41,446 nucleotides of DNA from positions 1 through 41,446 of the IMG/VR virus record IMGVR_UViG_3300047170_000201; one strand, given 5' to 3'. This document shows positions 7,307 through 40,107 of this stretch, one piece after another. The notes beneath the pieces are model-generated. The model was not told the DNA's origin, ran no database searches, and saw only the letters and a program-made list of their open reading frames with translations. Every line of letters starts with the position of its first letter. The stretch's first letter is position 1. Source of the stretch: a virus. Made by a program: the position numbers and the translations under genes.

Positions 7307-7816
7307 ATGGCGCTGGGGGATCGGAAATGGTCAATCTCCGCCTCCTGGCGCGCGGCGGTCGAGGTCGTCGCCATGGCGTACGGTGTCGACGCCGCCTCGC
7401 TCGATCTGGATAGCCGGGGCCGGGGCTCGCGGCCGCCCGAGGATGCCCGCGCGCCGCGCAAGATGGCGCTCCACCTGGCCGTCCTGGCCTCGGGCTGCAG
7501 TTATGCCGCGCTTGCGGCGCACATCGGCTACCACCGGGACACGGTCACGTCGGCGTGCATCGACGTGCGCGACGCGATCTCGGCCGACGACGACGCTGAA
7601 CTCAACTCGCGCCGCCTCGAGGCGCTGGTGCGAGCCAACCTGGCGGCCAACGGGCGCGGCGCCATAGCCGTTGCGCGGGCTCGGCTGGCGACGCTCGAAG
7701 CGCTTTACGAAAGCGACCCGGACCCTTCATCCGACAGTTTTCCGACGTTCATCCGACACGAAACCGGCGATCACGAAAACGTGATCACGATGATACAAAA
7801 GGCGGACGCGGCATGA
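7307..7816 (+). CDS. DnaA domain IV-like DNA-binding protein
   Basis: A 169-residue protein. Residues 47-90, APRKMALHLAVLASGCSYAA then LAAHIGYHRDTVTSACIDVRD, follow the pattern of DnaA domain IV: an arginine-led long helix (R-x-x-A), then the HTH and a HRDTV segment that matches the GRDHTTV signature loop contacting DnaA boxes. The AAA part of DnaA is absent, so this is a stand-alone DNA-binding domain with extensions. It precedes the primase and helicase genes and is a candidate origin-recognition protein for the iterons at 12.7-12.96 kb. The C-terminal 40 residues are acidic and coincide with two TCATCCGAC elements in the DNA. Confidence 0.65.
   Translation: MALGDRKWSISASWRAAVEVVAMAYGVDAASLDLDSRGRGSRPPEDARAPRKMALHLAVLASGCSYAALAAHIGYHRDTVTSACIDVRDAISADDDAELNSRRLEALVRANLAANGRGAIAVARARLATLEALYESDPDPSSDSFPTFIRHETGDHENVITMIQKADAA
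7726..7757 (+). promoter_or_regulatory. TCATCCGAC element, double copy
   Basis: Two copies of TTCATCCGAC, at 7726-7735 and 7748-7757, are 22 bp apart (two helical turns). They lie at the 3' end of the DnaA-like gene, 119-150 bp before the ATG of the ParB-like gene at 7876. The nonamer recurs before other gene starts downstream. They may be a promoter or a regulator site for the 7876-12470 operon. Confidence 0.4.
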
Positions 7817-7875
7817 GAGCGATGCACGCCGCGCGACTGCCAACCCTCCCCCTCCCCTGAGCAAGGAACCCCGAC

Positions 7876-8589
7876 ATGAGCGGCAAACTGCGTGCGATCG
7901 CGCCGGTCCAAGAGAAGAAGCACTACCGCATCACGCGCGCGCCGATCGCGCCACCGCCGCGTGTGGCGTGGGTCTCGGTGAAGGCACTGGTCATCGACGA
8001 AAGCTACCAGCGCCACATCAGCGCCGCCGGCGCGCGTCTGGTCCGTCAACTAATCCAGTATTGGGACTGGAACCGGTACAAGGCGCTATCGGTGGCGCCG
8101 ACGGGCGACGGCAAGTTCGAGATCGTGGATGGCCAGCACACGGCGATCGCGGCCATCTCGCACGGCGGCATCGAGATGCTGCCCTGTCTGATCCTCGACA
8201 GCGCCAGCGCGAAGGAGCGTGCGGCCGACTTCGTCGGCATCAACACCACCCGCACGAACCTGACCCCCTATGCTCTGTTTCGCGCCCAGCTGGTCGCGCT
8301 CGACCCGCTGGCGCTGGAAGCCCAGGCGGCATTGGACGAGGTTGGGGCAAACATGATCGAAAGCGTCAGGGCGCACCAAACGGAATATGCCGCCGGGACG
8401 CTCGCTTGCCCTAGCGCGGTGCTGTTCATCGCGCGAAAGGGCGGCCGCGCGGGCCTGGTGCGGTCTCTGCGGGCATGTATGGCCGCCGATCTCCGGCCAA
8501 TTCCGTCGACGGTGCTACGCATGGTGCATTACGCTTGCGCACGCAGCACGGACGCCGAGCTGCTCGCCATCGCCCGGCAATGCGCCTGA
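7876..8589 (+). CDS. ParB/DGQHT-type domain protein
   Basis: A 237-residue protein. It starts MSGKLRAIAPVQEKKHYRIT with CAAGGAA upstream of the ATG. The segment ALVIDESYQRHISAAGARLV, then about 40 residues on FEIVDGQHTAIAA and INTTRTNLTPYALFRAQL, follows the ParB/Srx N-terminal fold of the DGQHR subgroup: a basic YQR strand, the DGQH nucleotide- or DNA-binding loop and a downstream helical half. Homologues in phages and plasmids partition or nick DNA or act on DNA ends, but the specific role here is unknown. It starts 59 bp after the DnaA-like gene and is coupled (TGATG) to the next gene. Confidence 0.72.
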   Translation: MSGKLRAIAPVQEKKHYRITRAPIAPPPRVAWVSVKALVIDESYQRHISAAGARLVRQLIQYWDWNRYKALSVAPTGDGKFEIVDGQHTAIAAISHGGIEMLPCLILDSASAKERAADFVGINTTRTNLTPYALFRAQLVALDPLALEAQAALDEVGANMIESVRAHQTEYAAGTLACPSAVLFIARKGGRAGLVRSLRACMAADLRPIPSTVLRMVHYACARSTDAELLAIARQCA

Positions 8590-8726
8590 TGCCGGAGCCA
8601 AACGACCCGCTGCGCGCCTGGCTCGAGTACGTGGCCGACACGGCGATCGAGATGCTCGACGCCCCCGACGCGCCCTTCGAGGACCGCGAAGACGACGAAT
8701 GCGAAGACGATCGGGAGGTGGCGTGA
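8589..8726 (+). CDS. very small acidic protein
   Basis: A 45-residue protein from ATG 8589, which overlaps the previous stop. It is strongly acidic, with 16 Asp/Glu in the last 24 residues (DAPDAPFEDREDDECEDDRE), and the first part is a short amphipathic helix, DPLRAWLEYVADTAIEML. Such a polyanionic tail could mimic DNA or serve as a partner-binding peptide, but there is no direct evidence. The overlap of its stop with the primase GTG suggests that translation of this ORF drives primase translation. Confidence 0.5.
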   Translation: MPEPNDPLRAWLEYVADTAIEMLDAPDAPFEDREDDECEDDREVA

Positions 8727-9814
8727 GCGAGCTTCGCGCCCTCCCTTACGACTGGAAGGACTTGCGCAAGCGCCTCCAGGCTCGCGTGCCAGACCTGGTG
8801 CGGCGCCTCGGGGTCGTCGATCCGATCCGAGGCGGTATCGTTATGCCGCTCAACCCCACGCGCCAGGACCGGCGCCCGGGTAGCTTCGTCATCTGGACGG
8901 GCGGCGACGGCGCCGGGGCGTGGAAAGACTACGCCACCGGCGAGGCCGGCGACGTCATCGATCTGGTCGGCTACCTGCTCGGTCTGGCCACGCGCATGGA
9001 TGCCTATTGGTGGTGCCTGGAGTTCCTCGGCCTCGGCCGCGGCGAGGTCCGCACCGCCAGTCAGGCGGAGGCCGATCGCCGGCGAGCGGAGCGCGACCGC
9101 CTGGCGGGCGAGGCGCGCGCCAACGCCGACGCGGCCGACCGCTCGGCCGGGCTGTTCAAGAGCTGGTTGGCGTTGCCGCCGATCGCCGGCACGTTGGCCG
9201 AAACCTACCTGCGCGAGGCGCGCAAGATCCCGCTCGATCGCCTGCCGCACATGCCGGGCGCCCTGCGCTTCGCGCCGGCGCTGGATCACACGGACAAGGA
9301 TACGGGCGAGGTCACCAGCTGGCCCTGCATGGTCGCGGCGATGACGCGCGGCTCAAAGTTCGCCTCGATCCACCGAACCTTCCTCGCCCTCGATGGGAGC
9401 GGCAAGGCGCCCGTGAACAAGCCCAAGATGATGCTCGGGCCGTGCCGAGGCGCAGCCATCCGCCTGTCACCTGGTCCAAGCGGGCTATCGCCAGGCGCCG
9501 CTGACAAAAAGGGGCGCCGCGACCCGCTGGCCCTCGGTGAGGGGATCGAAACCACGCTGACGGTGGCGTGCGCGCGGCTCGACTATCGCGCCTGGGCGGC
9601 CGGTTCGCTGAGCCTCATGGGCCTGCTGGATTGGCCCGACTGCGCCAGCGCGGCCGTGCTGCTCAAAGAGAACGATTACAGCCCCGAGGCGGTGACGGCC
9701 TTCGCCCGCGTCGAGGCGCACTGGCAAGCGCAGAGCGCCGGCCGACCACTCGTGACGGCCGCCAGCAGCGTGGGCAGCGATTTCAACGATTGGGCGATGA
9801 GGAGAACAGCATGA
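8723..9814 (+). CDS. Toprim-type DNA primase
   Basis: A 363-residue protein starting at GTG 8723 within GTGA of the previous stop, with GGGAGGTG upstream. The N-terminal third (FVIWTGGDGAGAWKDYATGE, then DVIDLVGYLLG) matches the substrate-template part of P4-alpha/DUF7146-type primases. A charged coiled segment follows (residues 110-140). The C-terminal Toprim domain holds ALGEGIETTLT with E273 and the second acidic cluster E316-N-D318, then GSDFNDWA. It should make RNA primers for phage DNA replication with the helicase two genes downstream. No zinc finger is visible. The stop overlaps the next start as ATGA. Confidence 0.85.
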   Translation: MSELRALPYDWKDLRKRLQARVPDLVRRLGVVDPIRGGIVMPLNPTRQDRRPGSFVIWTGGDGAGAWKDYATGEAGDVIDLVGYLLGLATRMDAYWWCLEFLGLGRGEVRTASQAEADRRRAERDRLAGEARANADAADRSAGLFKSWLALPPIAGTLAETYLREARKIPLDRLPHMPGALRFAPALDHTDKDTGEVTSWPCMVAAMTRGSKFASIHRTFLALDGSGKAPVNKPKMMLGPCRGAAIRLSPGPSGLSPGAADKKGRRDPLALGEGIETTLTVACARLDYRAWAAGSLSLMGLLDWPDCASAAVLLKENDYSPEAVTAFARVEAHWQAQSAGRPLVTAASSVGSDFNDWAMRRTA

Positions 9815-10323
9815 CTAAGCCGGTTACACAGGCGTGGACGCACGAATTGTCTCTAATGCAGCAATCTGTGCTGTTGGGCGCGGTTCGCGGCCCCGATGGA
9901 CTGCCAAAATATGGGGCGGTCAAGATGATGGTCCGTTTTTATCGCCGTGCAATCCTGACCAGTTCCTTCAAGGGCGTGGCGATCGATAATCCTTACGATG
10001 GTGACGGCGGTTCATTTTATGGTCCTAGCATCTCGCAACCCGACGATGACAACTGGGAAACACCTCTGAACGTGGTGCTGAGCGCATATTTGCGAGACCT
10101 GGATGCGATCCCGCATCATTTTCAGCTACACTTCATCCATGCGGTGGAGATCGTCGGGTACAAGCACCCAAATCCCCGCGTTCGTGGATGGTGGCGGGTG
10201 GCCTATCTGCGGCTTGTTCATGACATGCACCTTTATCCGGAAAGCCTCGAGCAACTGGATAGGCGCTTGAGCGACACGCGTGTCGGCTGGCTGGAGCGCG
10301 CCGACCCGACGACGGTGGACTGA
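9811..10323 (+). CDS. conserved phage protein of unknown function
   Basis: A 170-residue protein starting at ATG 9811 with AGGAG upstream, coupled to the primase. It contains LMQQSVLLGAVRGPDGLPKY, an FYRRAILTSSF helix, PHHFQLHFIHAVEIVGYKHP and YLRLVHDMHLYPESLEQLDRRL. These are conserved-looking, tryptophan- and histidine-rich helices but carry no motif I can tie to a reaction. Similar short proteins occur in temperate tailed phages next to replication genes, from general knowledge. The start of the gene is noticeably less GC-rich than its neighbours (31 of 60 bases in 9901-9960), which suggests a separately acquired cassette. Confidence 0.72.
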   Translation: MTKPVTQAWTHELSLMQQSVLLGAVRGPDGLPKYGAVKMMVRFYRRAILTSSFKGVAIDNPYDGDGGSFYGPSISQPDDDNWETPLNVVLSAYLRDLDAIPHHFQLHFIHAVEIVGYKHPNPRVRGWWRVAYLRLVHDMHLYPESLEQLDRRLSDTRVGWLERADPTTVD

Positions 10324-10326
10324 CCT

Positions 10327-12207
10327 TTGGCCCGCGCGCCGCTCCAATCCCTCGACGCGATCGCCGCCGCCCTGCCTGACTTCGATGTCGAGCAGGCGGA
10401 GACGCTGCGCCAGCTGGGCAAACGTGACCCGTTGCCCGGCACGCCTTGGGACGTCGAGGTTTACCCTGGCGGCGAGCCTGAGCCGATCGAGCCTGGCGCG
10501 TGGGTCAACATGGGCATTGGCGATGGCCGCACCGGTCTGCCGCCCGGTTGCCCCGTTGTGCCTTTGGGCAAGGATGGCGCCGATTGCTATTTCCTGGATA
10601 CCCTTGGCGCCGTGTTCCAACTCGACGCCAAGTCGAGCGGCAAGGGGCCGATCGGCTACATGTTCGCCGGGCGGTCCCGTTTCCTCGAATGGGCGTGGCC
10701 GCGCTTCGGCCGGGCCGCGAAGGGGCGGCCGCCGCCGGTGACGGGCTGGGACGCCGACGACGCGCGCCAGTCGCTCGTGGATGCCTGCGCGTACCTCGGT
10801 TATTTTACCATGGAAGATCAGGTGCGCGGCCGCGGGGCCTGGCGCGATGATGACGGGAGCCTGATCTATCACGCGGGCGACGCCGTCTGGATCGGCGGCA
10901 AGTGGCGCGGCTGCGGCGTGCACGGCCGCCACATCTATCCCGCCCGGCTCAAGCTCGGCCGGCCGACCGTGCGCGCGCACCCCGCCGGTGTCGGTTCGAG
11001 CGGCGATTTGCTCCTCGAGCTGCTGCGCACGTTCAATTGGGACCGGGGCGAGCTCGACGCCAGATTGATGCTGGGTTGGCTGATGACCGCCAAGATGGGC
11101 GGTGCGTTGGATCGCCGGCCTGTGGCGTTCGTGGTCGGTGGCGAAGGCTCGGGCAAGAGCACGCTGCACGGCCTGCTGCGCCTGGTGATGACGGGGGCGC
11201 TGATCAAGACGTCGAACACTACGCAGGCGGGCATCTACGGCCGCCTGCGCCAGGACAGTGTTGCAATCATGGTCGACGAAATGGAGGCCAAAGAAGACAC
11301 GCGCACGGTCGACAAAATCCTGGAGTTGGCGCGGATTTGTTACTCGGGTGACAATATGAACCGGGGAACAAAAGACGGCGGTTCGCTCGAGTTCACGCTG
11401 TTTAGTTCGTTCATGGGTTCCAGCATCGCCAAGCCGGCTACGGATGCACAGGACGATAGCCGCATGGCCGTGCTGATGCTTCGCGAGCGGGAAACCGCCG
11501 GCGGCAAGCTCGATACGTCGCGCGAGGACATCGAGCAGATCGGCCGCGACTTGATGCGCAGGATCTTTGATTGGTGGCCTCGGTGGGATGCGCTGGTCGA
11601 GGCCTTCCGCGCGATGATGATCACCACCGGCCATAAGGACCGTGCGTGCGATACGTTCGCGCCGCTGGCTGCCGGCTACCACATCGCCACGAGCGATCAG
11701 ATGCCGACCGAGGATGATCTCGCGCCCTGGCGCGACTGGCTGGCGCCGCACGAGCTCGCTGAGACCGCGACGCGCGAGGCCAGCTGGGAGCGCTGCTGGT
11801 GGCACATGATGGACGCACAGCCCGAGAGCCTCAAGACGGCCGCCAGGCGCAGCGTGGGCGCGGCAGTCAACGCCTGGCGCAGTGCCGGCTTCGGCGAGCT
11901 CGAGGCCGTCACCCGCACCCTGACGCACGTCGGCCTGGCGCTGAGCTGGCCTAAGGGCTGCGAGGAAACATTTGAGCTCGCGCGGTTGTTCGTCCCGCTC
12001 AAAAGCCCGCCGCTGCATGAGTTGTTCGCCGGCACGCCGTGGAAAGGTCGCCTCGGTGCGCCTGGCCCGTGGGGTGGCGTGCTGCGCCAGATGCCTAAGC
12101 ATCTGTGGAAGATGAGCACGTGCGACAAGACGTTAAACCGCGCCGCTAGAGGTCTCATGATCGATTTGGCGGCGCTTCTTGAGCATATAGAGGAGGCTCA
12201 ACAGTGA
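10327..12207 (+). CDS. P4/VirE-type superfamily 3 helicase
   Basis: A 626-residue protein. The start is TTG 10327, three bases after the previous stop, behind GGTGG; no better start lies nearby. Residues 1-200 are an N-terminal accessory domain that includes MFAGRSRFLEWAWPRFGRAA. The ATPase core has Walker A GGEGSGKST (K277), Walker B VAIMVDE (D317-E318), a conserved TSNTTQAGIYGRL strand and a sensor-1-like SSFMGSSIAKPATDAQDDSR. This is the layout of phage P4/VirE-type helicases with a DUF5906-like core. The C-terminal 220 residues are helical and probably bind DNA or the primase. It is the expected replicative helicase, placed just upstream of the iteron region. Confidence 0.88.
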   Translation: MARAPLQSLDAIAAALPDFDVEQAETLRQLGKRDPLPGTPWDVEVYPGGEPEPIEPGAWVNMGIGDGRTGLPPGCPVVPLGKDGADCYFLDTLGAVFQLDAKSSGKGPIGYMFAGRSRFLEWAWPRFGRAAKGRPPPVTGWDADDARQSLVDACAYLGYFTMEDQVRGRGAWRDDDGSLIYHAGDAVWIGGKWRGCGVHGRHIYPARLKLGRPTVRAHPAGVGSSGDLLLELLRTFNWDRGELDARLMLGWLMTAKMGGALDRRPVAFVVGGEGSGKSTLHGLLRLVMTGALIKTSNTTQAGIYGRLRQDSVAIMVDEMEAKEDTRTVDKILELARICYSGDNMNRGTKDGGSLEFTLFSSFMGSSIAKPATDAQDDSRMAVLMLRERETAGGKLDTSREDIEQIGRDLMRRIFDWWPRWDALVEAFRAMMITTGHKDRACDTFAPLAAGYHIATSDQMPTEDDLAPWRDWLAPHELAETATREASWERCWWHMMDAQPESLKTAARRSVGAAVNAWRSAGFGELEAVTRTLTHVGLALSWPKGCEETFELARLFVPLKSPPLHELFAGTPWKGRLGAPGPWGGVLRQMPKHLWKMSTCDKTLNRAARGLMIDLAALLEHIEEAQQ

Positions 12208-12470
12208 AATTCGTTTGGCTAGAGGACGTGCGGGGCAAGTTTGGCCCGGTCAATCCCGACCGTGTCGCTTATCTGCGCGAGAACGTCGAGGGCAAGACGT
12301 GCGTCGTCTTCGGCGCGATGCCCGGCGGATTCGATGAGGTCGCGGTCAATGGCTCGATGAAAGAGGTCGCGGCGCTCCTGGAAGGCGATGGCCTGCAGGC
12401 GATGGGAATTGCGCTGACCGAGGCGCTAGCCGAGCCCCCGCAGCAACGGCGAAGACGCGCCAAAGGCTAG
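12204..12470 (+). CDS. hypothetical phage protein
   Basis: An 88-residue protein starting at GTG 12204 inside the helicase stop (GTGA), with GAGGAGGCT upstream. The first half has short strands (KFVWLEDV, CVVFGAMPGGFDEVAVN). The second half is a helix (SMKEVAALLEGDGLQAMGIALTEALA) with a basic tail (QQRRRRAKG). No family recognised. It is the last gene before the putative origin. Confidence 0.65.
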   Translation: MKFVWLEDVRGKFGPVNPDRVAYLRENVEGKTCVVFGAMPGGFDEVAVNGSMKEVAALLEGDGLQAMGIALTEALAEPPQQRRRRAKG

Positions 12471-12514
12471 CCGAACCCTCCTCTTAGGCGTTCCTCGCCC
12501 TCTACTGAAAACCT

Positions 12515-12608
12515 GTGATGGCCAGAGCGCCAGGTGCGACACGCGCCGGCGTTTGGCTGAGTGCGCCAGCGCGTGGGTGTCGCGCCTGGTGATCGGTACG
12601 GCCATCAC
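12515..12608. repeat. 94-bp imperfect inverted repeat (large hairpin)
   Basis: The arms GTGATGGCC (12515-12523) and GGCCATCAC (12600-12608) are perfect complements. Inside them, 12528-12551 (CGCCAGGTGCGACAC onward) pairs imperfectly with 12564-12589 (ending GTGTCGCGCCTGG) around a 12-base loop at 12552-12563. There is no T-run after it, so it is not a simple terminator. It sits directly before the iterons and could be an origin structural element or a stable transcript end. Confidence 0.6.
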
Positions 12609-12655
12609 GCCGCTCAACCCTGACCCGCTGCACAACCCTCACCCGTCGACCATCG

Positions 12656-12667
12656 GTCATCCGACCC
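12656..12667 (+). promoter_or_regulatory. TCATCCGAC element
   Basis: TCATCCGAC at 12657-12665, preceded by GG, so that GGTC and GACC flank the centre. It lies in the non-coding stretch between the large hairpin and the iterons, about 320 bp before the small terminase gene. Confidence 0.4.
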
Positions 12668-12716
12668 GGACCCCCAGGCTCTTAGCGTGGAAGTCGCGAT
12701 TTGGCCGTCAGCGGCC

Positions 12717-12959
12717 ATCCAATCATCCAATCGTTGCGCCAGCTGGCCCGATTGGACCGTTCCTCAAATAGATCAGCGCGTTGGACGGCGACCAATCGTC
12801 CAATCGAACAATCGCGTTTCCGCTCTACATGCGAGGCGCTTTGCCTCGGGAAAGCTCGCGCATAAGGGATTTGTCGATTGTTCGATTGTTCGATTGGATG
12901 GGTAATAAACCCTGGAAAAGCCTCGGAAATCATCCAATTAATGTCCAATCGACCAATCA
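12717..12959. repeat. 8-bp iteron array, candidate replication origin
   Basis: Copies of an 8-bp unit close to NCCAATCG form five clusters: ATCCAATC x2 (12717-12732), one reverse CGATTGGA (12749-12756), ACCAATCG-TCCAATCG-AACAATCG in tandem (12791-12814), CGATTGTT-CGATTGTT-CGATTGGA in tandem on the other strand (12875-12898), and TCCAATCG-ACCAATCA (12944-12959). A 6-bp-stem hairpin (12832-12848) lies between the two opposed triplets. The stretch is richer in A+T than the surroundings, especially 12900-12980. No gene is visible in 12471-12982. The layout fits initiator binding sites plus an unwinding region; a regulator site array for the late operon is the alternative. Confidence 0.6.
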
Positions 12960-12982
12960 AAGGCTTAAAAAATAGGTCTTAA

Positions 12983-13492
12983 ATGGATCAGCCGTCTCTA
13001 CCCCTCGCGATCGGGGGCACAACGAAGCGTCGGGGACGGCCGCCGGGCTCGGTGAACAAGAGCTCGATGGATCTGGCCCGGTACGTCGAGGCCCAGTTCG
13101 GCGGCATGACGCCGGGCCAGCAGAGCGCGCGCCTGTGCCTGGTCACGCCGGCGGACCTGAAGAACGCGCAAGCCAACGCCAAGCGTGTCGGCCTCGCCCA
13201 TCCTCCGAAGGACCCGATGATGTGCGCCATGGCGGTGAAGGCGGAGGAGCTCGCGAAGGCGTTGGGGTGCGAGCGCGCCTTCGCCTGGGCGCTGATCTCG
13301 CGAGAGCGCGAGGGCCTGATGAAGTACATCCATCAACCGCAGCCAGCGGCCCCGCCGAAGAAGGGCGATGGCGCGTCCATCCTGGCCTACATCGTGCCGG
13401 AGGGCTCGGATGGGCCAAACGTTGAAATCGTTGACGATTTCGACCCGGACTTGATCGAAGTCTCACCGGTCAAGTCTCACGACGCCACCTAA
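12983..13492 (+). CDS. putative terminase small subunit
   Basis: A 169-residue protein starting at ATG 12983 with AATAGG upstream. Residues 15-27, KRRGRPPGSVNK, are an AT-hook-like basic motif. The central helical part (MDLARYVEAQFGGMTPGQQS, then KAEELAKALGCERAFAWALI) resembles the DNA-binding helical part of small terminases. The C-terminus is acidic (VEIVDDFDPDLIEV) and could contact the large subunit. The call rests on these traits and on position immediately before the large terminase; sequence alone is not decisive. It would recognise the packaging site, probably nearby. Confidence 0.65.
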   Translation: MDQPSLPLAIGGTTKRRGRPPGSVNKSSMDLARYVEAQFGGMTPGQQSARLCLVTPADLKNAQANAKRVGLAHPPKDPMMCAMAVKAEELAKALGCERAFAWALISREREGLMKYIHQPQPAAPPKKGDGASILAYIVPEGSDGPNVEIVDDFDPDLIEVSPVKSHDAT

Positions 13493-13678
13493 GGCGTTGA
13501 AAAACCGAGGGTAACCCTCCGCACGCCCGCTGATCGTAAATCAGCTGGACCGCGCCGGCGCCGCACTGAGGGAACCGCTCGGCGCGGACCTCGGCGACCA
13601 GGGCGCACCCCACCCCCGGTTTTTGCGCCGACCCCCGACGCTGTGGCCCATCTTCCGTCTGGAATTCTAGCTTTCGAG

Positions 13679-13691
13679 CCCATCCGACGCC
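13679..13691 (+). promoter_or_regulatory. CATCCGACGCC element upstream of terL
   Basis: CATCCGACGC at 13681-13690 continues as CTCCGGCTGGC. Over about 21 bases it matches the 35476 copy (CATCCGACGCCCCGGCCGGC) with one gap and one substitution. It lies in the 255-bp gap 13493-13747 between the terminase genes. That gap also has small palindromes at 13506-13519 (GAGGGTAACCCTC) and 13529-13545 (GCTGAT/ATCAGC). Confidence 0.35.
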
Positions 13692-13747
13692 TCCGGCTGG
13701 CCGCTAAAATTCGAAAACTGGCAAAGGGTCAGGGTGAGGGTCGACGC

Positions 13748-15262
13748 TTGGGGCCGCAATCCGAGATGGAGTTACGGCCTTGGGAGTTCGCCGGTCCGGT
13801 CGCCCGGGCCTTCGAAGTCTCGCGCGCCCCGATCAGTGCGATCGTGGGGCCTACGGGTGGTGGGAAGTCGACGGCGAGCGCTCGCCGGTGCCTCCGTGTC
13901 GCATTGTGGCAAGAGCCTAGCCCCCGCGACGGCGTACGTCGAGCCCGAACTGTCTGCATCTGCCCAACCTACCGGCGCGCCTGGGACACGGTGATGCCGA
14001 GCTATTTCAAGGTGTTCAGCCAGACCAGCGGCACGTTCCGCGGCAGCCGCGGCGATCCGGCCGATCACTTTTTCGACATCGTGGTCAATCACGGCGGCGT
14101 TCCGGCCAAGGTGCACGTCGAGGTGCTGTTTCGGGCGGTGAACGACCTCGACGTCGAGGACTTCATGCGCGGGCTCGAGGTGACGGGCTTCTGGCTGCCG
14201 GAAGCCGACACCAACGGCGACCTTGCCCAGCTGCTCAGCCTGGGCAGCAACCGGGTGGGGCGATACCCCGAGCCCGACGACAGGCCCGACCATAGCGAAG
14301 TCACGCCGTACAGCGGCATATGGATGGACGCCAACGCGCCCATGATCGACACCCCGTTTCACGATCGCCTCTACCTGAAGAAAATGCCGGATGGCACCGC
14401 CGCGCCGGCAACGGACAGGTTGTTCATTCAGCCGGGCGGCTTCAACGCCAATGCGGAGAACATGAGTAATCTGCGCAAAATCCGCAAAGACTACTATGCG
14501 CACATGGCGACCCAGCTGGATGCTTACGACGTGGGCCGGATGATCAACAACCGGCCCGGCTATGGCCGCCATGGTCAGCCGGTGCACCCGAATTTCGACC
14601 AGGAAGCCCACGTCGCGCAACGAACGATCGAGGTCGACCGCTTCTCGGATGTCTACATCGGCGTCGACGCGGGCTCGAACGCGCTCGTGCCCGGCGCTGT
14701 GTTCAAGCAGCGGGCCTATAGCGGCCAATGGCGGGTGCTGGCCGAAATCTACCTCAAAGACGGGCAGATGAACACCGAGGAGCTTGCCCGCGAGATCCGG
14801 CGGATCATGGAGAGCCGGTTCGCCGGCCTCGGCCGCGATCACGGCGCCATGCTGTGCCTGGACCCGGCCGCCGGCGGCCGCAACGCCGGCAGCGAGTACA
14901 CCACGGCTCTGGCCCTGCAGCAGCTGACCGGCATCGAGGCCCAGCTGGCGCCCAGCAACGACCCGAAGCACCGGCGCAGCGCCCTGGACAAGTTGTTCAA
15001 GCGCAACTGCGGCCCGGGGGAGCCGGGGATCATCATCGACCCGTCCTGTCACGGCCTGATCGGGGGCCTGAGCGGCGGCTTCCACTATCCCAGGCGCGGC
15101 CAGGTGGTCAGCGCGTCGGCCGCCAAGAACCGGTTCAGCCACGTCTGCGAGGCGGCGGAGTACGTGCCGCTCACCGTCGACGGCCTGGACGCCAGCGAGG
15201 GGCGCTTCATCCGACCCGGCGGCGCGGGCTCCTACGATGCTCCCATCGGCATCTACGACTAG
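13748..15262 (+). CDS. terminase large subunit
   Basis: A 504-residue packaging ATPase/nuclease. I start at TTG 13748 because GAGGG (13736-13740) lies seven bases upstream. The frame is open back to a GTG at 13643, which has no ribosome site and would swallow the element at 13681. The ATPase domain has RPWEFAGPVARAF (adenine-binding region), Walker A GPTGGGKST (K40) and Walker B-like GFWLPEA with E152. The nuclease domain begins YIGVDAGS (D307) and includes MLCLDPAAGG. The type resembles the T7-like/DUF-type large terminases of podoviruses. It would cut and pump DNA into the prohead through the portal encoded two kilobases downstream. Confidence 0.9.
   Translation: MGPQSEMELRPWEFAGPVARAFEVSRAPISAIVGPTGGGKSTASARRCLRVALWQEPSPRDGVRRARTVCICPTYRRAWDTVMPSYFKVFSQTSGTFRGSRGDPADHFFDIVVNHGGVPAKVHVEVLFRAVNDLDVEDFMRGLEVTGFWLPEADTNGDLAQLLSLGSNRVGRYPEPDDRPDHSEVTPYSGIWMDANAPMIDTPFHDRLYLKKMPDGTAAPATDRLFIQPGGFNANAENMSNLRKIRKDYYAHMATQLDAYDVGRMINNRPGYGRHGQPVHPNFDQEAHVAQRTIEVDRFSDVYIGVDAGSNALVPGAVFKQRAYSGQWRVLAEIYLKDGQMNTEELAREIRRIMESRFAGLGRDHGAMLCLDPAAGGRNAGSEYTTALALQQLTGIEAQLAPSNDPKHRRSALDKLFKRNCGPGEPGIIIDPSCHGLIGGLSGGFHYPRRGQVVSASAAKNRFSHVCEAAEYVPLTVDGLDASEGRFIRPGGAGSYDAPIGIYD
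15206..15215 (+). promoter_or_regulatory. TCATCCGAC element in the terL 3' end
   Basis: TTCATCCGAC, followed by CCGGCGGCGCGG, about 60 bp before the ATG at 15278. It is also codons for FIRP in terL, so chance or protein-coding constraint cannot be excluded for this copy. Confidence 0.3.
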
Positions 15263-15277
15263 GAGGCTAGCACCCCC

Positions 15278-15688
15278 ATGACGCGACTGTTCGCGCGATA
15301 CCTGACCCCCATGTGTGGGGCCTCGTTCCTGTTGGCCCTCGCGGGCGGCCTCCTCGTCCTCGGCGGCCATGCCACGGCGACGCAGGTTCAGACCGCCCCG
15401 ACGGCCTACCCGGTCACCGACGCGTCGGGCGCGATCACCGCCGGCGGCAGCTTCCAGACCGTGTTCGCCCAGACCGCCGGCCGCCACGACTGCATCATCG
15501 AAAACCCCGTCGCGGCCACCGAAACCCTGTTCATCCACGCCGACGCCGGCTCGCCCACCACGGCCAACAGCTTCTCGATCGGCGCGGGCGCCGTGTTCAA
15601 CTGCCAGGCCTTCGGCATCGTCACCCCCGACACCGTCCAGGTCGAAGCGGCCACCACCGGCCACGCCTTCGTGGCCAAAACCCAATGA
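15278..15688 (+). CDS. exported or virion-surface beta-rich protein
   Basis: A 136-residue protein. AGGAGG lies about ten bases before the ATG. The N-terminus is a typical signal sequence or signal anchor: basic MTRLFARYL, then a hydrophobic stretch SFLLALAGGLLVLGGHA, with a possible cleavage site after ATA (about residue 34). The mature part is threonine- and alanine-rich with short beta strands and two cysteines that could form a disulfide (RHDCIIENP and FNCQAFG). No family recognised. It sits between large terminase and portal and is coupled (ATGA) to the next gene, which is also exported-looking, so the pair probably works together on the lysogen surface or as head decoration. Confidence 0.65.
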   Translation: MTRLFARYLTPMCGASFLLALAGGLLVLGGHATATQVQTAPTAYPVTDASGAITAGGSFQTVFAQTAGRHDCIIENPVAATETLFIHADAGSPTTANSFSIGAGAVFNCQAFGIVTPDTVQVEAATTGHAFVAKTQ

Positions 15689-16755
15689 AGGCGCACATCC
15701 CTTTCCTGGCCGCCGTGGCCCTGACGGTCACCGTATCGCTGGCGGTGTCGCAATCGATCCGGCCGGCCCCCGGCGGCGGCGGCGGCGGCGGCGGGAGCGG
15801 AACGGTCACCTCGGTGGGGAGCGGCGTCTGCCTCACCGGCGGCCCGATCACGGTCAGCGGCACGCTCGCCGTGGCTTGCGGCCCCACCGACGAACTCGCG
15901 TGGAACGGCGACGTGGGCCTGTCGCGCCACTCGGCCAATTTTCTCTACGTCGGCAACGGTACGCAGAACGATTCGAGCGGCACGCTGGGCGCGGGCGCCT
16001 TCACCCTCTCTTCCGGCGCGGCCGGCCAATGGAACTCGGCCGCGTTCGCCCTGCCGGCCCTGGGCCTGCAGGGTTGGACGGCTGGCGCCAACGCCACCTT
16101 GGCGCTCGACACGGGTTTATCCCGCGACAGCGCCGGCGTGGTCGACGTGGGCAACGGCAGCCAGGGCGATTCCAGCGGTTCGATCAAGCTGGCCAACCTC
16201 ACCATCAGCAGCGTCACCGCCTCCAGCGACGTCTGCGCCAGCGCGGCGAAGCTGCTGGTGACCTGCACCTCGACCGGCACGGGGCTCAATGTCCAGCAGA
16301 CGTCGCCGGCGCTGATCACGCCCACCCTGGGCGTGGCCACCGCGACCAGCATAAACGGCGAAGTGGTGCCGACCGCCAGCAGCACGCTCATGGACCTGGG
16401 GTCCTCACAAACGGTCACCGCAAGCAAGGGCTTCAGCGGCATCGTTAGCCTGCTGGGCGGCTTGAACCAGCTAGTCTCGGTGATCACCGCGGCCGGCGCG
16501 ATAACGGTCAACTCGTCTCAGCAAATCATAGAAGTCGACAAGACGACGGGCGCGGCCACGACCGTGAACATACCGGCGCCGACCACGGCAAATCGCGTCC
16601 TATACATCGTCGACGGCAAGGGCGACGCCAACACGAACAACATTACCGTCACTCCGTCTTCGGGCACGATCAACGGCGCGGCCAGCTACATCATGAACGT
16701 CAATCGCGAGGCGATCCAGATCGTCTCGGACGGTACGCAGTGGGTCGTGCTGTAG
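15685..16755 (+). CDS. signal-peptide fibre-like protein
   Basis: A 356-residue protein starting at ATG 15685. The N-terminal MKAHIPFLAAVALTVTVSLAVS is a signal-like hydrophobic helix. An eight-glycine linker follows, coded by GGC repeats at about 15772-15796. The rest is rich in Gly, Ser, Thr and Asn. It begins SGTVTSVGSGVCLTGGPITV, the GTVTSV repeat style common in phage tail and head fibres, and ends in a likely trimeric beta domain (YIMNVNREAIQIVSDGTQWVVL) typical of fibre tips. The role is probably adhesive or decorative. The hydrophobic start is unusual for a virion fibre and could instead mark export of a lysogen surface protein. Confidence 0.65.
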   Translation: MKAHIPFLAAVALTVTVSLAVSQSIRPAPGGGGGGGGSGTVTSVGSGVCLTGGPITVSGTLAVACGPTDELAWNGDVGLSRHSANFLYVGNGTQNDSSGTLGAGAFTLSSGAAGQWNSAAFALPALGLQGWTAGANATLALDTGLSRDSAGVVDVGNGSQGDSSGSIKLANLTISSVTASSDVCASAAKLLVTCTSTGTGLNVQQTSPALITPTLGVATATSINGEVVPTASSTLMDLGSSQTVTASKGFSGIVSLLGGLNQLVSVITAAGAITVNSSQQIIEVDKTTGAATTVNIPAPTTANRVLYIVDGKGDANTNNITVTPSSGTINGAASYIMNVNREAIQIVSDGTQWVVL

Positions 16756-16943: not shown

Positions 16944-16944
16944 G

Positions 16945-19819: not shown

Positions 19820-19858
19820 GCTTGACCGGCCGCGCAAATCACTAGAGCCCAATGATCT

Positions 19859-19987: not shown

Positions 19988-20004
19988 AGCGGGAGCGCGC
20001 CATC

Positions 20005-20973: not shown

Positions 20974-21009
20974 GCCGCGCCTCAAACCCTTACTTGAAAG
21001 ATCAGTCAA

Positions 21010-22370: not shown

Positions 22371-22382
22371 CTCATCCGACGC
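22371..22382 (+). promoter_or_regulatory. TCATCCGACGC element
   Basis: CTCATCCGACGC directly after the tail tubular A stop, followed by AGCCGCGCGC, 26 bp before the tail tubular B start. It is in non-coding DNA and on the coding strand. It shares TCATCCGACGC with the 35476 and 40097 copies. Confidence 0.4.
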
Positions 22383-22407
22383 AGCCGCGCGCAAGCGATG
22401 CTGGGGG

Positions 22408-31959: not shown

Positions 31960-32141
31960 CAATCGAACACCTGATCGACGAACAGGCGCTGGCGCAGCGA
32001 GCGCGAATGGAGGCGGCCAAAACTCACGCCGCCGCCGGCGTGGTACTGGACGAGTGCTTCGCTCGCGAGCGCGACGCAACGTCGGCGTTGCGCGTCGAAT
32101 TGGAGCGCCTTTGCGCAGAGGCGGCCGCGCGCCTCAAATGA
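31956..32141 (+). CDS. small coiled-coil protein
   Basis: A 61-residue protein beginning MTIEHLIDEQALAQRARMEA. ATG 31956 overlaps the previous stop, with GGAGGAAC upstream. Heptad-like hydrophobic spacing and high Ala/Glu/Arg content (EAAKTHAAAGVVLDECFARE, then SALRVELERLCAEAAARLK) predict a coiled coil. It is the first of three small genes inserted between two large virion genes. No family recognised. Confidence 0.62.
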   Translation: MTIEHLIDEQALAQRARMEAAKTHAAAGVVLDECFARERDATSALRVELERLCAEAAARLK

Positions 32142-32455
32142 GCGATACCGTCGAAAGGACCATCGGCCCTTTTGTTCGCCCTGGCGATGGCCGGCTGCTG
32201 ACGATGCTGGAAATGCTCGAATGGCGCGAGCGGAGCTTTCTGTGCGGCTATCGGCTGACGGACGGGTTTTGCGATGGTCGCAACCATCCGCAATGCAAGC
32301 GGTGCGCCAACACGGCGACCCGCCACGTCAAGGGCATGCTGGAGCGGCTACGCGAACCCACGGCCGCCATGATCCGCGCGGGCCAAGAGGCGCGGCGCTC
32401 GGGGGGCGACGAGGTCGGCATATTCGAGGCCATGATCGACGAGGCGCTGCTATGA
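32138..32455 (+). CDS. cysteine-cluster hypothetical protein
   Basis: A 105-residue protein starting at ATG 32138, coupled as ATGA to the gene before it. LCGYRLTDGFCDGRNHPQCKRC (residues 35-57) holds four cysteines and a histidine that could form a zinc site. The tail LREPTAAMIRAGQEARRSGG, then FEAMIDEALL, resembles a short helical motif found in small phage proteins of unknown function. No virion role is evident. Confidence 0.66.
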   Translation: MSDTVERTIGPFVRPGDGRLLTMLEMLEWRERSFLCGYRLTDGFCDGRNHPQCKRCANTATRHVKGMLERLREPTAAMIRAGQEARRSGGDEVGIFEAMIDEALL

Positions 32456-32745
32456 CCCTCGGCGAGGCCCTGGATGACATCATCGGGGCGACTTCGAATG
32501 CAGCCTTAGCGGCCGCCGGTCAAAGCGTGGAGTGGCGATTGGCGTTGGCCTTCGCCATCGTGCCGGAAAGCGGGGTCGAAACCGTGCCTGGCGTCGCGCT
32601 TCGGGATTGGTGGGACGGCCGTTTTGGCGTCCCCGTGGACCGCAATTACACCAGGGCAGCGTGCGAGTTGGCCATGCGCACCGAGTTCGAACGCGAGATC
32701 AGCCCGGAGTTCTTGTTGGCCGTAAAGAAGGCGCTGGGCGCATGA
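32452..32745 (+). CDS. hypothetical protein
   Basis: A 97-residue protein, MTLGEALDDIIGATSNAALA, starting at ATG 32452 inside the previous stop. It looks like one globular domain: two N-terminal helices, a possible turn at PGVALRDWWDGRFGVPVD, and a long C-terminal helix (AACELAMRTEFEREISPEFL). No recognised motif. It lies in the small-gene cluster between the polyvalent protein and the gp16-like protein. Confidence 0.6.
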   Translation: MTLGEALDDIIGATSNAALAAAGQSVEWRLALAFAIVPESGVETVPGVALRDWWDGRFGVPVDRNYTRAACELAMRTEFEREISPEFLLAVKKALGA

Positions 32746-35474: not shown

Positions 35475-35515
35475 GTCATCCGACGCCCCGGCCGGCGCGC
35501 CATGCTGCGAGCATG
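35474..35515 (+). promoter_or_regulatory. TCATCCGACGC element with hairpin
   Basis: GGTCATCCGACGC follows the gp16-like stop. After GCGCGCC there is a 6-bp stem hairpin, CATGCTGCGAGCATG (35501-35515). The 178-bp gap before the fibre gene (35475-35652) holds this and little else: a 47-codon ORF (35514-35656) and the first part of a frame from 35562 are both too weak to call. Confidence 0.45.
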
Positions 35516-35652
35516 AGATCGCGGCGCCCATTCCGAACTCCGACCGCCGGGCGCGGAGTCAATGGCCACCCTGAGGGATCCACAAGCGGGGGCGGAGAAC
35601 GCGGGTATAGAACCGCTGAAGGATGGCAAGCCCGGCGCCGGGGAGCGGTCGC

Positions 35653-37782
35653 TTGACCGTCGCCCCGGCCTATACCGAGACGATCTACGCCCTGACCGGT
35701 TCGACGCTGGGGCCGTTCCAGACGGTCTTTACCTACGAAGACGACAGCGACGTGCTGGTGTGGGTCGACCTGGGCGCGGGACCGGTGCTGCAGGCCAGCG
35801 GCCTGGGCTATACGCTCACCGACAACGGCGGCGACAGCCTCGACAACGGCGGCCAGGTGATGCTGCTGGCGGCCGTCCTCGACGGCGCGCTGGTATGGCC
35901 CGCCAATTCGCAGATCACCCTCGATCGCGCCACGGCGCAGAGCCAGCCGTCGGCCCTGGGCGAAGCCATCGGCTTCAGCCCGCAGGCCTATGAAGACGCG
36001 CTCGACCACGTGGACCGCCAGGTCCAGGACGCCGGCGCGCTGCAGGCCCGCAATCTGCGCGGCCAACCGGGCGACGTGTTCACCGCCCTGCCCACGGCCG
36101 CGTTGCGCGCCGGGATGCTTCTGGGCTTCGATCCCGTCAATGGCGCGCCGGTGGTGGAGCTGCCCAGCTTCGCCACCAGCAGCACGCCGCTGCAGTTCTC
36201 GACCCTGGCCACGGCCACGGCCGCCGCCATCCCGGCCGCGAGCCCGTTCGTTCAGACCCAAGGCTATGCCGCCGCCGGCGATGGCGGCGGCGCGCTCTAC
36301 GCCCCCGCGGCCGCCGGCGCGGGCCTGGGCAAGTTCCAGAGCGCCGACGGCCAGTGGTGGGGCCTGGCGCAGCAATCGATCCGCCCGGAAATGATCGCCG
36401 CCACCGGCACGGGCCAGCTGGCCAGCGCCATAAGCTACCTCGCGGCCGGGCGCGGCGGCCGCCTCGAGCTGTTCGCCAAGGAATACGACATCGCGCCGTT
36501 CACGCTCGACGTCGGCGTCAATCTGCGCGGCCAGGGCCCGGCGCACCAGGCCTTCTATGCGACCGATCCCAAGGGCACGGTGCTGGCCATCGCCGGCGTC
36601 GCGGCCGGCTGGCTGCTCACCTTCCAAGGCGAGGCCACGGGCGGGGGAAACTATGGCCTGAGCGATCTCTCCGTCTACCAGACCGGCACGGCCGCCATCG
36701 CCGGCCTGGTCGACATCGCGGGCCTGCAAAACGCGTTTCTGCAGAACGTCGAGATCAGCGGCCAGTTCGTCAATCAGGGCGTCGGCCTGTACTTGAGCCG
36801 GGGCGACCTGAGCCTGCCGACCAGCTTCGGCGACTTCGTTCACCTGAAAATAGACGGGTGCAATACAGGCCTGCAGATAGACCAGGACTGCACCGGCAAC
36901 GCCTGGCACGGTGGCAGCATCCAGGGCGCCCGCTACGCCTTGCACATGACCGGCGGCGCGAACGTGCCGGCCGGCAACAGCTTTCATGGCGTGGCCTTCG
37001 AGGCCACGTTCGTGGCCGGCGCCATGGAGATCGTCTATCTGCCGCCCGGGACCAACGTGGTCGGTTTCACGCCCAACACCACCGGCGTCTATGTGGTCAA
37101 GTTCGTGAAGATCGAACAGGGCCAGAGTACGCTCTTCGCCGGCTGCTACTTCGAGCTGGGCAATTTGCCGGGCAGCTACAACGACGGCGTCAACGGCACC
37201 CATACCATTCTTGGGGTGATCTCGGTCGAGGCCGGCGCGGTGGACACGTTCTTCTATGGCTGCCGCATGGCCTGCTACATGCTGGACGCCGGCAACGACA
37301 CACAGGTCAAGAGCGTCCAGACCAATCTGCCGGACTACAGCACCAAGAGCCCGCCGCGCAGCATACGCACCACCACGGTGGCCACCGCGATCCCGGCGGT
37401 GGTGGCCGGCGTCTACACGCCCATTCCCTTCGCCACCGCGCTCGAGGAGGACAGCGGCTATTTCACCTGGAACGGCGGGGCGACCGCGTGCACCGTGAAC
37501 GCGCCGGGCGAATACCGGGTCGACATGACCCTGGTCTATGGGGCCATGGCCGGCGCCAGCACCTTCAACCTCGCCGCCGCGCTCATAGGCGGCGTCCAGC
37601 GGCGCGGCCGCAGCGTCATGGCCCTGGCGGCCACGGCCGCCGGCCAGGTGTGCGTGGATCTCGTCTGGCAGGGCTATCTCTACGCCGGCCAGACCATCGC
37701 GCCGCAGGCGCAGTGCGCCTACGGCTGCAGCCTCGACGTCGCCGCGCCCGACAATCGGATCGCCATCCTCAAGGTGCAATAG
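35653..37782 (+). CDS. tail fibre/tailspike protein 1
   Basis: A 709-residue protein. TTG 35653 was chosen for GGGGAG upstream and because the paralogue downstream starts identically (MTV then a ten-residue strand before LGPF). An ATG at 35623 lengthens it by ten residues. The N-terminal 170 residues resemble the T7 gp17-type virion anchor (TVFTYEDDSDVLVWVDLGAG, then HVDRQVQDAG). The middle is a likely right-handed beta-helix (GGRLELFAKEYDIAPFTLDV, VNLRGQGPAHQ). The C-terminal knob ends QAQCAYGCSLDVAAPDNRI. It should bind host surface glycan and perhaps cleave it. It overlaps the next gene by one base. Confidence 0.84.
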   Translation: MTVAPAYTETIYALTGSTLGPFQTVFTYEDDSDVLVWVDLGAGPVLQASGLGYTLTDNGGDSLDNGGQVMLLAAVLDGALVWPANSQITLDRATAQSQPSALGEAIGFSPQAYEDALDHVDRQVQDAGALQARNLRGQPGDVFTALPTAALRAGMLLGFDPVNGAPVVELPSFATSSTPLQFSTLATATAAAIPAASPFVQTQGYAAAGDGGGALYAPAAAGAGLGKFQSADGQWWGLAQQSIRPEMIAATGTGQLASAISYLAAGRGGRLELFAKEYDIAPFTLDVGVNLRGQGPAHQAFYATDPKGTVLAIAGVAAGWLLTFQGEATGGGNYGLSDLSVYQTGTAAIAGLVDIAGLQNAFLQNVEISGQFVNQGVGLYLSRGDLSLPTSFGDFVHLKIDGCNTGLQIDQDCTGNAWHGGSIQGARYALHMTGGANVPAGNSFHGVAFEATFVAGAMEIVYLPPGTNVVGFTPNTTGVYVVKFVKIEQGQSTLFAGCYFELGNLPGSYNDGVNGTHTILGVISVEAGAVDTFFYGCRMACYMLDAGNDTQVKSVQTNLPDYSTKSPPRSIRTTTVATAIPAVVAGVYTPIPFATALEEDSGYFTWNGGATACTVNAPGEYRVDMTLVYGAMAGASTFNLAAALIGGVQRRGRSVMALAATAAGQVCVDLVWQGYLYAGQTIAPQAQCAYGCSLDVAAPDNRIAILKVQ

Positions 37783-39893
37783 TGACCGTCACGCCGACGC
37801 CGACGCTGAGCGTGTACGCCCTGGCCGGTACGAACCTCGGGCCGTTCGCGGTCGGCTTTCCCTATGAGCAGCCGTCCGACGTGGCCGTCTGGGTGGACAT
37901 GGGCGCCGGCGCTGTGCTGCTGGCCGTGGGTGTCGGCTACACGCTGGCCGCCGCCGACCCTCTGCTCGCCGGCGGCTACCTGACCCTGCTGGCGGCGGCG
38001 CTGAAGGGGCATGCGACATGGCCGCCCGGCAGCACCCTGGCCATGCGGCGACAGACCGAGGCCGACCAGCCGTTGGCGGAGAGCGGTTTCTCCGCCTTTG
38101 ACCCGGTGGCCTACGAAGCGGCGCTCGATCATGTGGAGCGCCAGGTGCAGGACATCTTCGGCCTGGTCCCCAACGCGCTGCGCGGTGGCCCGGGCGACGA
38201 ATTCGCGCCGCTGCCGCCGGCCGCCCAGCGCGCCGGCGGCCTGCTGGGCTTCGACCCTGTGACCGGCGCGCCGGTGGTGACGGTGCTGACCTTCGGCGCG
38301 GACGGCGGCGCTCTCTATTTCGCCACCACCGCCTCGGCCGCGCTGGCCTTTATTCCGACCGGGTCGCCGGCGCTCACCACCGCCGGCTTCACGATCGCCG
38401 GCGACGGCGGCGCGGCGCTGTTCGCGCCCGTGGCCGGCCCAGGCGCCGGGGCGTTCCAGAGCGCCGACGGCCAGTGGTGGGCGCCGGGCCTGCAGCTGGC
38501 GCGACCGGAGATGGTCGGCGTGGGGCGCGGCATGATCGCCGCCGGCGCGGGCTGGCTGAACGCCGGGCGCGGCGGCCGTCTCGAACTGTTGGCCAGCGAG
38601 TACGACCAGGCTCCGTTCGTGCTGCCGCACCGGGTCAACCTGCGCGGCCAGGGGCCGGCCGATCAGCCCTTTTACGCGTCCACGCCCAAGGGCACGGTGA
38701 TCTCCAGCATGGTGCTGGTGGGCGACGCCGTCGCCTTCGAAGGCGACCTGGGCAGCAAGGGCGAATTCGGGATCTCCGATCTGTCGATCTACCAGGCCGG
38801 CGTGGGTTCGCCCAAGGCCCTGCTGGAAATCGCCGGCGTCCTGCATCCTCAGGTGAGCAACGTCGAACTGAGCGGCCAGGGTTTCTACGACGGCGTGGGC
38901 CTCTTGCTCGATCGCGACGGTCTGGCCGAGCCCACGATCTATAACGACTTCATCCATCTGCGTATAAGCGGGGTGAGCGTCGGTATCCAGATCGTCGACG
39001 ACTGCAACGCCAGCCACTTCCATGGCGGCTATGTAGAGGCCGGCCTCTACGCCCTGCACATGTATGGCATCGCCGCCTATCCGACCGGGTGCGGCTTCTA
39101 TGGCACGGCCTTCACGGCGACCTTCAACGCCGGCATGGACATCCTCTGGCTGCCGGCTGGAACCAACCTCATCGGCTACGCGCCCAATACGGCGGGGATG
39201 TACGCGGCCAAGCTGGCGCGCATCGAGAAGAGCCAGAGCACTCTGTTCCATGGCTGCAGCTTCACCATGGCCGGGCTGCCGGGCAGCTACGATGACGGCG
39301 TGCATGGATCCCTTCCCATCGTTGGCGTCGTCAGCATCGAGACGGGCGCCGTCGACGTGTGCCTGTACGGCTGCGCCTGGAGCGGCTGCGCGGTCCTGGA
39401 CAACGGCAACGGCACCGAGGTCAACGGCCTGGGCGGCGGCCTGCCGGACTTTCGCAGCAAGAGCATGCCGCGCAGCGTGCGGGCCACCACGACGCCGACG
39501 CCGATCCCGGGCGGCACGGGCGCCTACACGCCGATCGTCTTCGACATCGGCGACGAAGAGGACACCGGCTTTTTCAGTTGGAACGGCGGCAACACCGTGT
39601 GCACGATCAACTATCCTGGCCAATACAGGATAGACATGACGCTGAGCTTCGACGCCATGGCCGGCGCCAGCGCGTTCAATCTCGCCGCCCTATTGGTCGG
39701 CGGCGTCCAGCGCCGCGGCGCCAATGTGATCTCGACCGGCGTGACGGTGCGTGGCGAGGTCTGCTGTGGCGTCACATGGCAAGGCTACCTCGAGGCGGGG
39801 CAGACCATCACGCCGCAGGCGCAATGCAGCTACGGCTGCCTGCTGGCGCCGAGCCTGCCGGACAACCGGCTGATGATCACGAAGGTGCAGTGA
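37782..39893 (+). CDS. tail fibre/tailspike protein 2 (paralogue)
   Basis: A 703-residue protein starting at GTG 37782 that shares a base with the stop of fibre 1. It matches fibre 1 end to end: FPYEQPSDVAVWVDMGAG near the start, VNLRGQGPADQ at the same place, and the same C-terminal block (FNLAALLVGGVQRRG, then WQGYLEAGQTITPQAQCSYG). The middle surface region differs most, as expected if the two bind different receptors. Both probably trimerise. Neither has an obvious catalytic motif by eye. The last 17 bases overlap a minus-strand gene. Confidence 0.84.
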   Translation: MTVTPTPTLSVYALAGTNLGPFAVGFPYEQPSDVAVWVDMGAGAVLLAVGVGYTLAAADPLLAGGYLTLLAAALKGHATWPPGSTLAMRRQTEADQPLAESGFSAFDPVAYEAALDHVERQVQDIFGLVPNALRGGPGDEFAPLPPAAQRAGGLLGFDPVTGAPVVTVLTFGADGGALYFATTASAALAFIPTGSPALTTAGFTIAGDGGAALFAPVAGPGAGAFQSADGQWWAPGLQLARPEMVGVGRGMIAAGAGWLNAGRGGRLELLASEYDQAPFVLPHRVNLRGQGPADQPFYASTPKGTVISSMVLVGDAVAFEGDLGSKGEFGISDLSIYQAGVGSPKALLEIAGVLHPQVSNVELSGQGFYDGVGLLLDRDGLAEPTIYNDFIHLRISGVSVGIQIVDDCNASHFHGGYVEAGLYALHMYGIAAYPTGCGFYGTAFTATFNAGMDILWLPAGTNLIGYAPNTAGMYAAKLARIEKSQSTLFHGCSFTMAGLPGSYDDGVHGSLPIVGVVSIETGAVDVCLYGCAWSGCAVLDNGNGTEVNGLGGGLPDFRSKSMPRSVRATTTPTPIPGGTGAYTPIVFDIGDEEDTGFFSWNGGNTVCTINYPGQYRIDMTLSFDAMAGASAFNLAALLVGGVQRRGANVISTGVTVRGEVCCGVTWQGYLEAGQTITPQAQCSYGCLLAPSLPDNRLMITKVQ

Positions 39894-40086
39894 GGACGGG
39901 CAGCCGGCCCGTGGTGATCAGGCTCGCGACGCACGAGCCGACGAACGCGACGGCCATGACGCCCCAGCCGAAACACACGATGGCGGCCGCGAAGATGTTC
40001 CCGCCGCGCCGTCCCCAGACGGCGAACCACAGCGCAAAAAGCGCCGCGCCAACCCCGTAGTACCCCGCGATCGCCGTCCAGATCAT
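39877..40086 (-). CDS. small two-helix membrane protein, antisense to fibre end
   Basis: A 69-residue protein on the opposite strand to its neighbours, with GAGGGGGCGGCG before the ATG at 40086. Two hydrophobic helices (YYGVGAALFALWFAVWG and NIFAAAIVCFGWGVMAVAFVGSCVASLI) are separated by a basic loop, GRRGG. The 3' end overlaps the fibre gene by 17 bases. The longer open frame to 40362 is shadow sequence. The opposite strand and separate position suggest expression in the lysogen, for example superinfection exclusion; a holin or anti-holin is the alternative. Confidence 0.58.
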   Translation of the reverse strand: MIWTAIAGYYGVGAALFALWFAVWGRRGGNIFAAAIVCFGWGVMAVAFVGSCVASLITTGRLPVLTAPS

Positions 40087-40095
40087 CGCCGCCCC

Positions 40096-40107
40096 CTCAT
40101 CCGACGC
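40096..40107 (+). promoter_or_regulatory. TCATCCGACGC element
   Basis: CTCATCCGACGC followed by GCACGCGCGCGAGG, in the gap between the minus-strand gene start (40086) and the next plus-strand gene (40165). It faces the lysis genes. Confidence 0.42.

Follow-up and report, generated by a model that had tools for sequence, protein, structure and literature searches.

A two-box promoter-like element and a GafY-like candidate activator in a small lineage of temperate short-tailed phages

In the middle promoters of bacteriophage T4, an asymmetric MotA box replaces the -35 element and is combined with a -10 element of the sigma-70 type. At leaderless promoters of Deinococcus-Thermus, the -10 element adjoins the start codon (PMC12340547). 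In gene transfer agents (GTAs), GafA and GafY are direct activators of phage-like late genes (PMC6363796, PMC11150451). GafA binds near the -10/-35 region of the RcGTA promoter and is required for activation of that promoter (PMC6363796, PMC9638019), and it has been suggested to act in a sigma-like manner (PMC9638019). GafY co-purifies with domains 3-4 of RpoD and has been proposed to help RNA polymerase at degenerate -35 elements (PMC11150451), and no consensus site for GafY could be derived from the few known targets (PMC11150451, PMC9632790).

We analyzed a stretch of 41,446 nucleotides, which is a whole IMG/VR virus contig (the window). In addition to the genes listed in Table 1, it carries a primase/helicase block, TerS, TerL, portal, a scaffold-region gene, the major head protein, tail tube A and B, internal virion proteins, two tandem fibre-like genes and an endolysin-like protein, although several of these labels rest on position and on homology to a related contig (g6, below). 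The gene order matches the podovirus module of BcepC6B and pelagiphages. No RNA polymerase or sigma factor was recognised among the window genes, and Rfam and tRNA scans returned nothing. The tandem tail-fibre-like genes (35623-37782 and 37782-39893) contain blocks that are ~75% alike in DNA and 2.1 kb apart. Near the contig edge, 366-1766 encodes a STAND/AAA-type ATPase (nSTAND1, 5e-12) with a weak match to the candidate defence family PDC-S27 and no counterpart in g6, g8 or g9.

A sequence-only reading of the window had drawn attention to a recurrent 9-mer, TCATCCGAC, and its seven exact copies, all on the plus strand, were confirmed (7727, 7749, 12657, 15207, 22372, 35476 and 40097). The 9-mer is rare by chance: dinucleotide-preserving shuffles scored on both strands (n=100) gave a mean of 0.28 copies and a maximum of 3, and none reached 7. 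Moreover, a k-mer ranking of the window places TCATCCGAC near the top of its over-represented 9-mers. The reported variant copy, CCATCCGACGC, is also present, at 13680. Of the copies said to lie in non-coding DNA directly before a gene, that at 12657 is indeed non-coding, but the next gene begins at 12983, ~330 bp away, and thus not directly after it. The copies at 7727 and 7749 are within the 3' end of gene 7307-7816, each in a different reading frame, and the copy at 15207 is within the 3' end of TerL. We also noted that the gap between the helicase-like gene and TerS holds an A+T-richer non-coding stretch (12720-12975) with many CCAATCG/CGATTGG-type repeats, e.g., CGATTGTTCGATTGTTCGATTGG; this stretch might be a replication origin or the sites of another regulator.

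We found related phages from the DNA pattern and then from alignments. A blind DNA scan of viral contigs with the pattern TCATCCGACGCN{3,8}GCGCGC gave 54 matches, most of which are probably due to chance, and yielded the first relative, L040 (record G001, here g1), whose last internal virion protein is 47% identical to that of the window. In g1 there are five box copies, all on the coding strand, and one is directly past the stop codon of the last internal virion gene, the same gap as 35476 in the window. Further relatives came from protein searches: g5 (G005) and g6 (G006), two contigs that overlap and are nearly identical; g7 (G007); g8 (G008), which is more distant; and g9 and g10 (G009 and G010). 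The MCP or portal of the relatives is 43-70% identical to that of the window. Single-protein searches of viral contigs with tail tube B, portal or the last internal-virion protein returned no relatives, and part of the window, compared as DNA with cultured phages, gave no match.

The sequence-only reading had named the lack of the box at the same gaps in relatives as evidence against it, and we observed the opposite, with the box at the same gaps in every related viral contig. Places common to the window and the relatives, on the coding strand, are before TerL, in the 3' end of TerL, ahead of the portal block (g1 and g5 among the relatives), before tail tube B, and past the last internal-virion gene, ahead of the fibre genes. 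At some shared places in g8 and g9, the variants TCGTCCGAC, TGATCCGAC or CCATCCGAC occur. Matrices built with one lineage left out found the same places and little else in the genomes, and a scan of viral contigs for the pattern with its second box (described below) returned family members only, plus unrelated single matches. The two-box element is confined to one small phage lineage within the collections searched. A first bacterial genome scan gave no match. A distantly related prophage with the same gene order (portal 32%) was identified in a Robiginitomaculum MAG (G011 contig C18; L077, L087-L089); based on this prophage and on the links to GafY discussed below, our guess is an alphaproteobacterial host.

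The element is bipartite, with TCATCCGAC followed after 16-17 bp by NANNNT (mostly SATSCT). Counting the first T of the box as position 1, we found an A and a T at 27/31 or 28/32 in 23 of 24 late copies (random mean 1.2, maximum 6/24 in 5000 draws), and an ATG at 37-39 in 11 of the 24 (random mean 0.85, maximum 5). The phage g9 was checked after this rule had been fixed, and 5/5 of its late copies obey it; when all late copies are pooled, 28/29 have the second box at the right distance, and the copy at 12847 in g7 has no -7 T. In g9, the starts of tail tube B (17583) and of the fibre gene (30132) lie exactly 37 bases past the first T. Since the conserved A and T are in the place of the -11 A and -7 T, position 38 would be the +1 base, and since several start codons fall at this predicted +1, those late mRNAs should be leaderless. 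The early copies tested (n=4) have no A/T pair at the second-box positions. Thus, the second box at fixed spacing and the start codons at the predicted +1 support the proposal of a candidate phage promoter or regulator site, and we consider it very probable, as predicted from the sequence, that the TCATCCGAC element is a promoter element (Table 1). We also noted a possible weaker promoter in g9 (L083-L085 joined) at 40373, close to where the helicase-like gene ends, with GCGTCCGAC and CATGAT as its -10.

Table 1. Predicted promoters, boxes and selected genes of the window
Feature	Coordinates	Strand	Box	-10	Remarks
Integrase	3287-4600	minus
Repressor-type gene	6011-6625	minus
Gene for stand-alone DnaA-domain-IV-like DNA-binding protein, GafY-like, candidate activator	7307..7816	+			Fold, family match, conservation, profile
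Early box pair, candidate operator of regulator gene or operon	7727..7757	+	7727-7735, 7749-7757	None at right spacing	Counterparts at same gene end in g6 (inverted pair) and g8
Predicted promoter ahead of TerS (12983-13492)	12657..12695	+	12657-12665	TAGCGT 12683-12688	17-bp spacer; ~290 nt leader; weaker matrix score
Predicted TerL promoter	13680..13717	+	Variant CCATCCGAC 13680-13688	TAAAAT 13705-13710	TerL start probably TTG 13748; recovered by matrix trained without window; matching copies in g1, g6, g8, g9
Predicted promoter in TerL 3' end, ahead of gene 15278	15207..15245	+	15207-15215	TACGAT 15233-15238	17-bp spacer; identical spacing in all five phages
Predicted late promoter before tail tube B	22372..22407	+	22372-22380	GATGCT 22397-22402	Start codon 22408, predicted +1 22409; orthologous copies in g1, g5, g7, g8, g9
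Predicted late promoter just past stop of last internal-virion gene	35476..35513	+	35476-35484	CATGCT 35501-35506	Predicted +1 35513 = ATG of 47-codon ORF; fibre gene start 35623 or 35653; orthologous copies in g1, g5, g7, g8, g9
Predicted late promoter before lysis-side genes	40097..40134	+	40097-40105	CACAGT 40122-40127	g7 18397 in comparable place past fibre genes

We considered that the copies inside TerL, all of which have the one-base longer spacer, might reflect mere conservation of the protein (FIR/LIR), but codon usage counters this explanation. The five TerL genes have 23 invariant Arg columns; the box Arg is encoded by CGA in 5/5 phages, while the other 22 columns use CGA in 6/110 cases. 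Thus, the use of this rare codon in all five phages places the constraint at the level of the DNA. Between TerL and portal, g1 (L061, 6366-9737) encodes an 1123-aa protein whose family is unassigned, and the equivalent place in the window, 15278-16755, is likewise without a Pfam match.

With respect to promoter class, the late copies have the A at -11 and T at -7 of the sigma-70 class at a fixed distance, but a TTGACA-like -35 is missing and TCATCCGAC stands there instead; we therefore propose an activator-dependent class. Alternatively, an alternative sigma factor, either of ECF type and from the host or encoded unrecognised by the phage, could use TCATCCGAC as its -35 and SATSCT as its -10 without any separate activator. 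Such a factor would account for the -35/-10 geometry, the 16-17 bp spacing and the unusual -35, and GafA has itself been suggested to be sigma-like (PMC9638019). We nevertheless regard this alternative as unlikely, based on three observations: the window proteins scanned include no sigma-like gene; the -10 retains the sigma-70 -11 A and -7 T, and reads TAAAAT once (13705-13710); and the early boxes stand without a -10, which suggests that a protein binds the box alone.

The best candidate for a protein that reads TCATCCGAC is the product of 7307-7816. Its AlphaFold2 model (mean pLDDT 76) has as top Foldseek match 1j1v (prob 1.00, TM 0.75 by target, E 0.006), the structure of domain IV of E. 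coli DnaA in complex with a DnaA box; the DnaA domain of M. tuberculosis was matched as well. The assignment to the DnaA domain IV fold agrees with a Bac_DnaA_C match in 3/4 family members (best E 0.0016), and a four-member profile aligns weakly to 1j1v and 3pvp. No homologs were found in cultured phages. The protein is kept in g6, g8 and g9, the relatives with an early region, and the only regulator candidates shared in that region are this protein and one excisionase-like gene. The early region is covered by four viral genomes only (the window, g6, g8 and g9), so that few cases bear on the association of protein with box; the Robiginitomaculum prophage, in which we found no DnaA-like protein and no exact box, is consistent with this association.

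The window, g6 and g8 have boxes without a -10 at the end of the DnaA-like gene, and no box (≤1 mismatch) is found there in g9. The orientation of the pair differs, being inverted in g6 (reverse complement of L069+L070, 4189-4217) and tandem in the window. A palindrome in this region, GATCACGAAAACGTGATC at 7769-7786, was set aside as an operator because its first letters recur in g9, where they code for a shared DHEN peptide.

Reading the alignment, we found that the base-reading helix of DnaA retains its shape in the phage proteins and that the contact residues are changed; the recognition-helix residues are nearly invariant among the phages (H-R/K-D-T-V). The changed contact residues would fit a related but different box, and by our own comparison TCATCCGAC differs from the DnaA box TTATCCACA at 4/9 bases, with an ATCC core in common. 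This common core could also be taken to mean that a host transcription factor (e.g., host DnaA) binds the box and ties late expression to the state of the host. We find this improbable, given that these phages have essentially no canonical DnaA boxes but preserve the variant exactly, and that among viral contigs the two-box form is limited to this phage lineage.

The phage-encoded DnaA-like protein is linked to the GTA activators by homology. We compared the four-protein profile with 289 alphaproteobacterial genomes (the class of the Robiginitomaculum MAG) and obtained only two matches (7e-9 and 2e-7), both of them 144-aa Bac_DnaA_C proteins with a DUF6456 gene directly next and with sufE and a divergent XRE-type gene adjoining. 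This layout is that reported for split gafA genes (PMC9638019) and resembles Caulobacter gafYZ (PMC9632790). The homology of the 7307-7816 protein to these genes is thus established by profile, and their identity as GafY by synteny. DUF6456, the GafZ partner, is absent from Pfam scans of the window proteins.

Two further explanations concern signals of other kinds. We judged it very improbable that the box is an RNA-level signal (processing, translation enhancer or terminator) in a read-through mRNA: some copies do lie a few bp past a stop codon, and the spacer is rich in G+C (87% vs 69%) and slightly palindromic, but the -10-like box and the +1 start codon are fixed, there are copies far upstream of genes and an inverted copy in g6, and no T run of the intrinsic-terminator kind is present. 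(Since 12/500 shuffles are equally palindromic, a slight excess only, we do not claim a GafZ-like palindrome in the spacer.) T7-type promoters can be dismissed with near certainty: 7/9 bases of TAATACGAC, the T7 -17 to -9 segment, do match TCATCCGAC, as the sequence-only reading had stated, and the phage has a T7-like structural module, but no single-subunit RNA polymerase match was obtained among the window proteins scanned (PHROGs, Pfam), in agreement with that reading, and only two separate boxes are conserved, the second 16-17 bp downstream, with no T7 -8 to +6-like block directly next and no continuous T7-type block from -17 to +6. The resemblance to T7 is coincidental; the element is arranged like a bacterial -35/-10 promoter.

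We thus return to the activator-dependent reading, in which TCATCCGAC would be the -35-region element (-37 to -29) of the late promoters of a temperate short-tailed phage. Host RNA polymerase would read these promoters, its housekeeping sigma contacting the NANNNT -10 located 16-17 bp downstream, while a phage activator would bind the asymmetric 9-mer in lieu of a consensus -35. The activator would most likely be the DnaA-domain-IV-like 7307-7816 product, made early from an operon beside the lysogeny switch, and would switch on in concert the blocks for terminase, portal, tail tube, fibre and lysis. Where the start codon coincides with the +1 base, as predicted for several promoters, the mRNA would be leaderless, and the boxes without a -10 at the end of the activator gene may provide feedback on the early operon. 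We infer, with moderate confidence, that the late promoters are read by host sigma-70 RNA polymerase by way of the GafY-like protein. Weighing against this reading are the differences from DnaA in the box and in the contact residues, the position of the GafY site in Caulobacter, the absence of a GafZ match among the window proteins, the lack of a box at the gene end in g9 and the missing -7 T of the g7 copy. The broader proposal, that the whole late programme is under a GafY-like, DnaA-derived activator whose 9-bp site stands for the -35 at about six promoters, several of them leaderless, seems to us evenly balanced. If true, the GTA switch would have a counterpart in a free-living phage, and the GafA/GafY class of activators would gain its first sharp recognition site; a phage relative with several clean sites would make both recognition and the phage origin of the GTA switch directly testable.

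This late promoter class appears to be undescribed. A literature text search for TCATCCGAC gave no phage promoter among the matches listed, and we found no described late promoter set for temperate phages of this group that lack their own RNA polymerase. Among known systems, the T7 promoter shares the partial base match and the location before gene blocks, but the window element is bipartite and occurs without a phage RNA polymerase. T4 middle promoters likewise combine a phage box in place of the -35 with a -10 of sigma-70 type, although MotA/AsiA are unrelated proteins and the T4 box is nearer to the -10. The leaderless promoters of Deinococcus-Thermus resemble the element in having the -10 near the start codon and a leaderless mRNA (predicted here) (PMC12340547); here, in contrast, there is a conserved activator-type box, and phage genes only. 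The closest likeness is to GafY/GafZ and GafA, with a DnaA-domain-IV-like DNA-binding protein, a degenerate -35, profile homology, and direct activation of phage-like structural blocks, a known feature of GafY and GafA that we propose for the phage protein. The phage system differs from these in belonging to a temperate phage, in having many promoters with one sharp box, and in that no DUF6456 partner was found. Moreover, Caulobacter GafY needs IHF and binds at about -120; the box in the phages is at -37 to -29, overlapping the -35.
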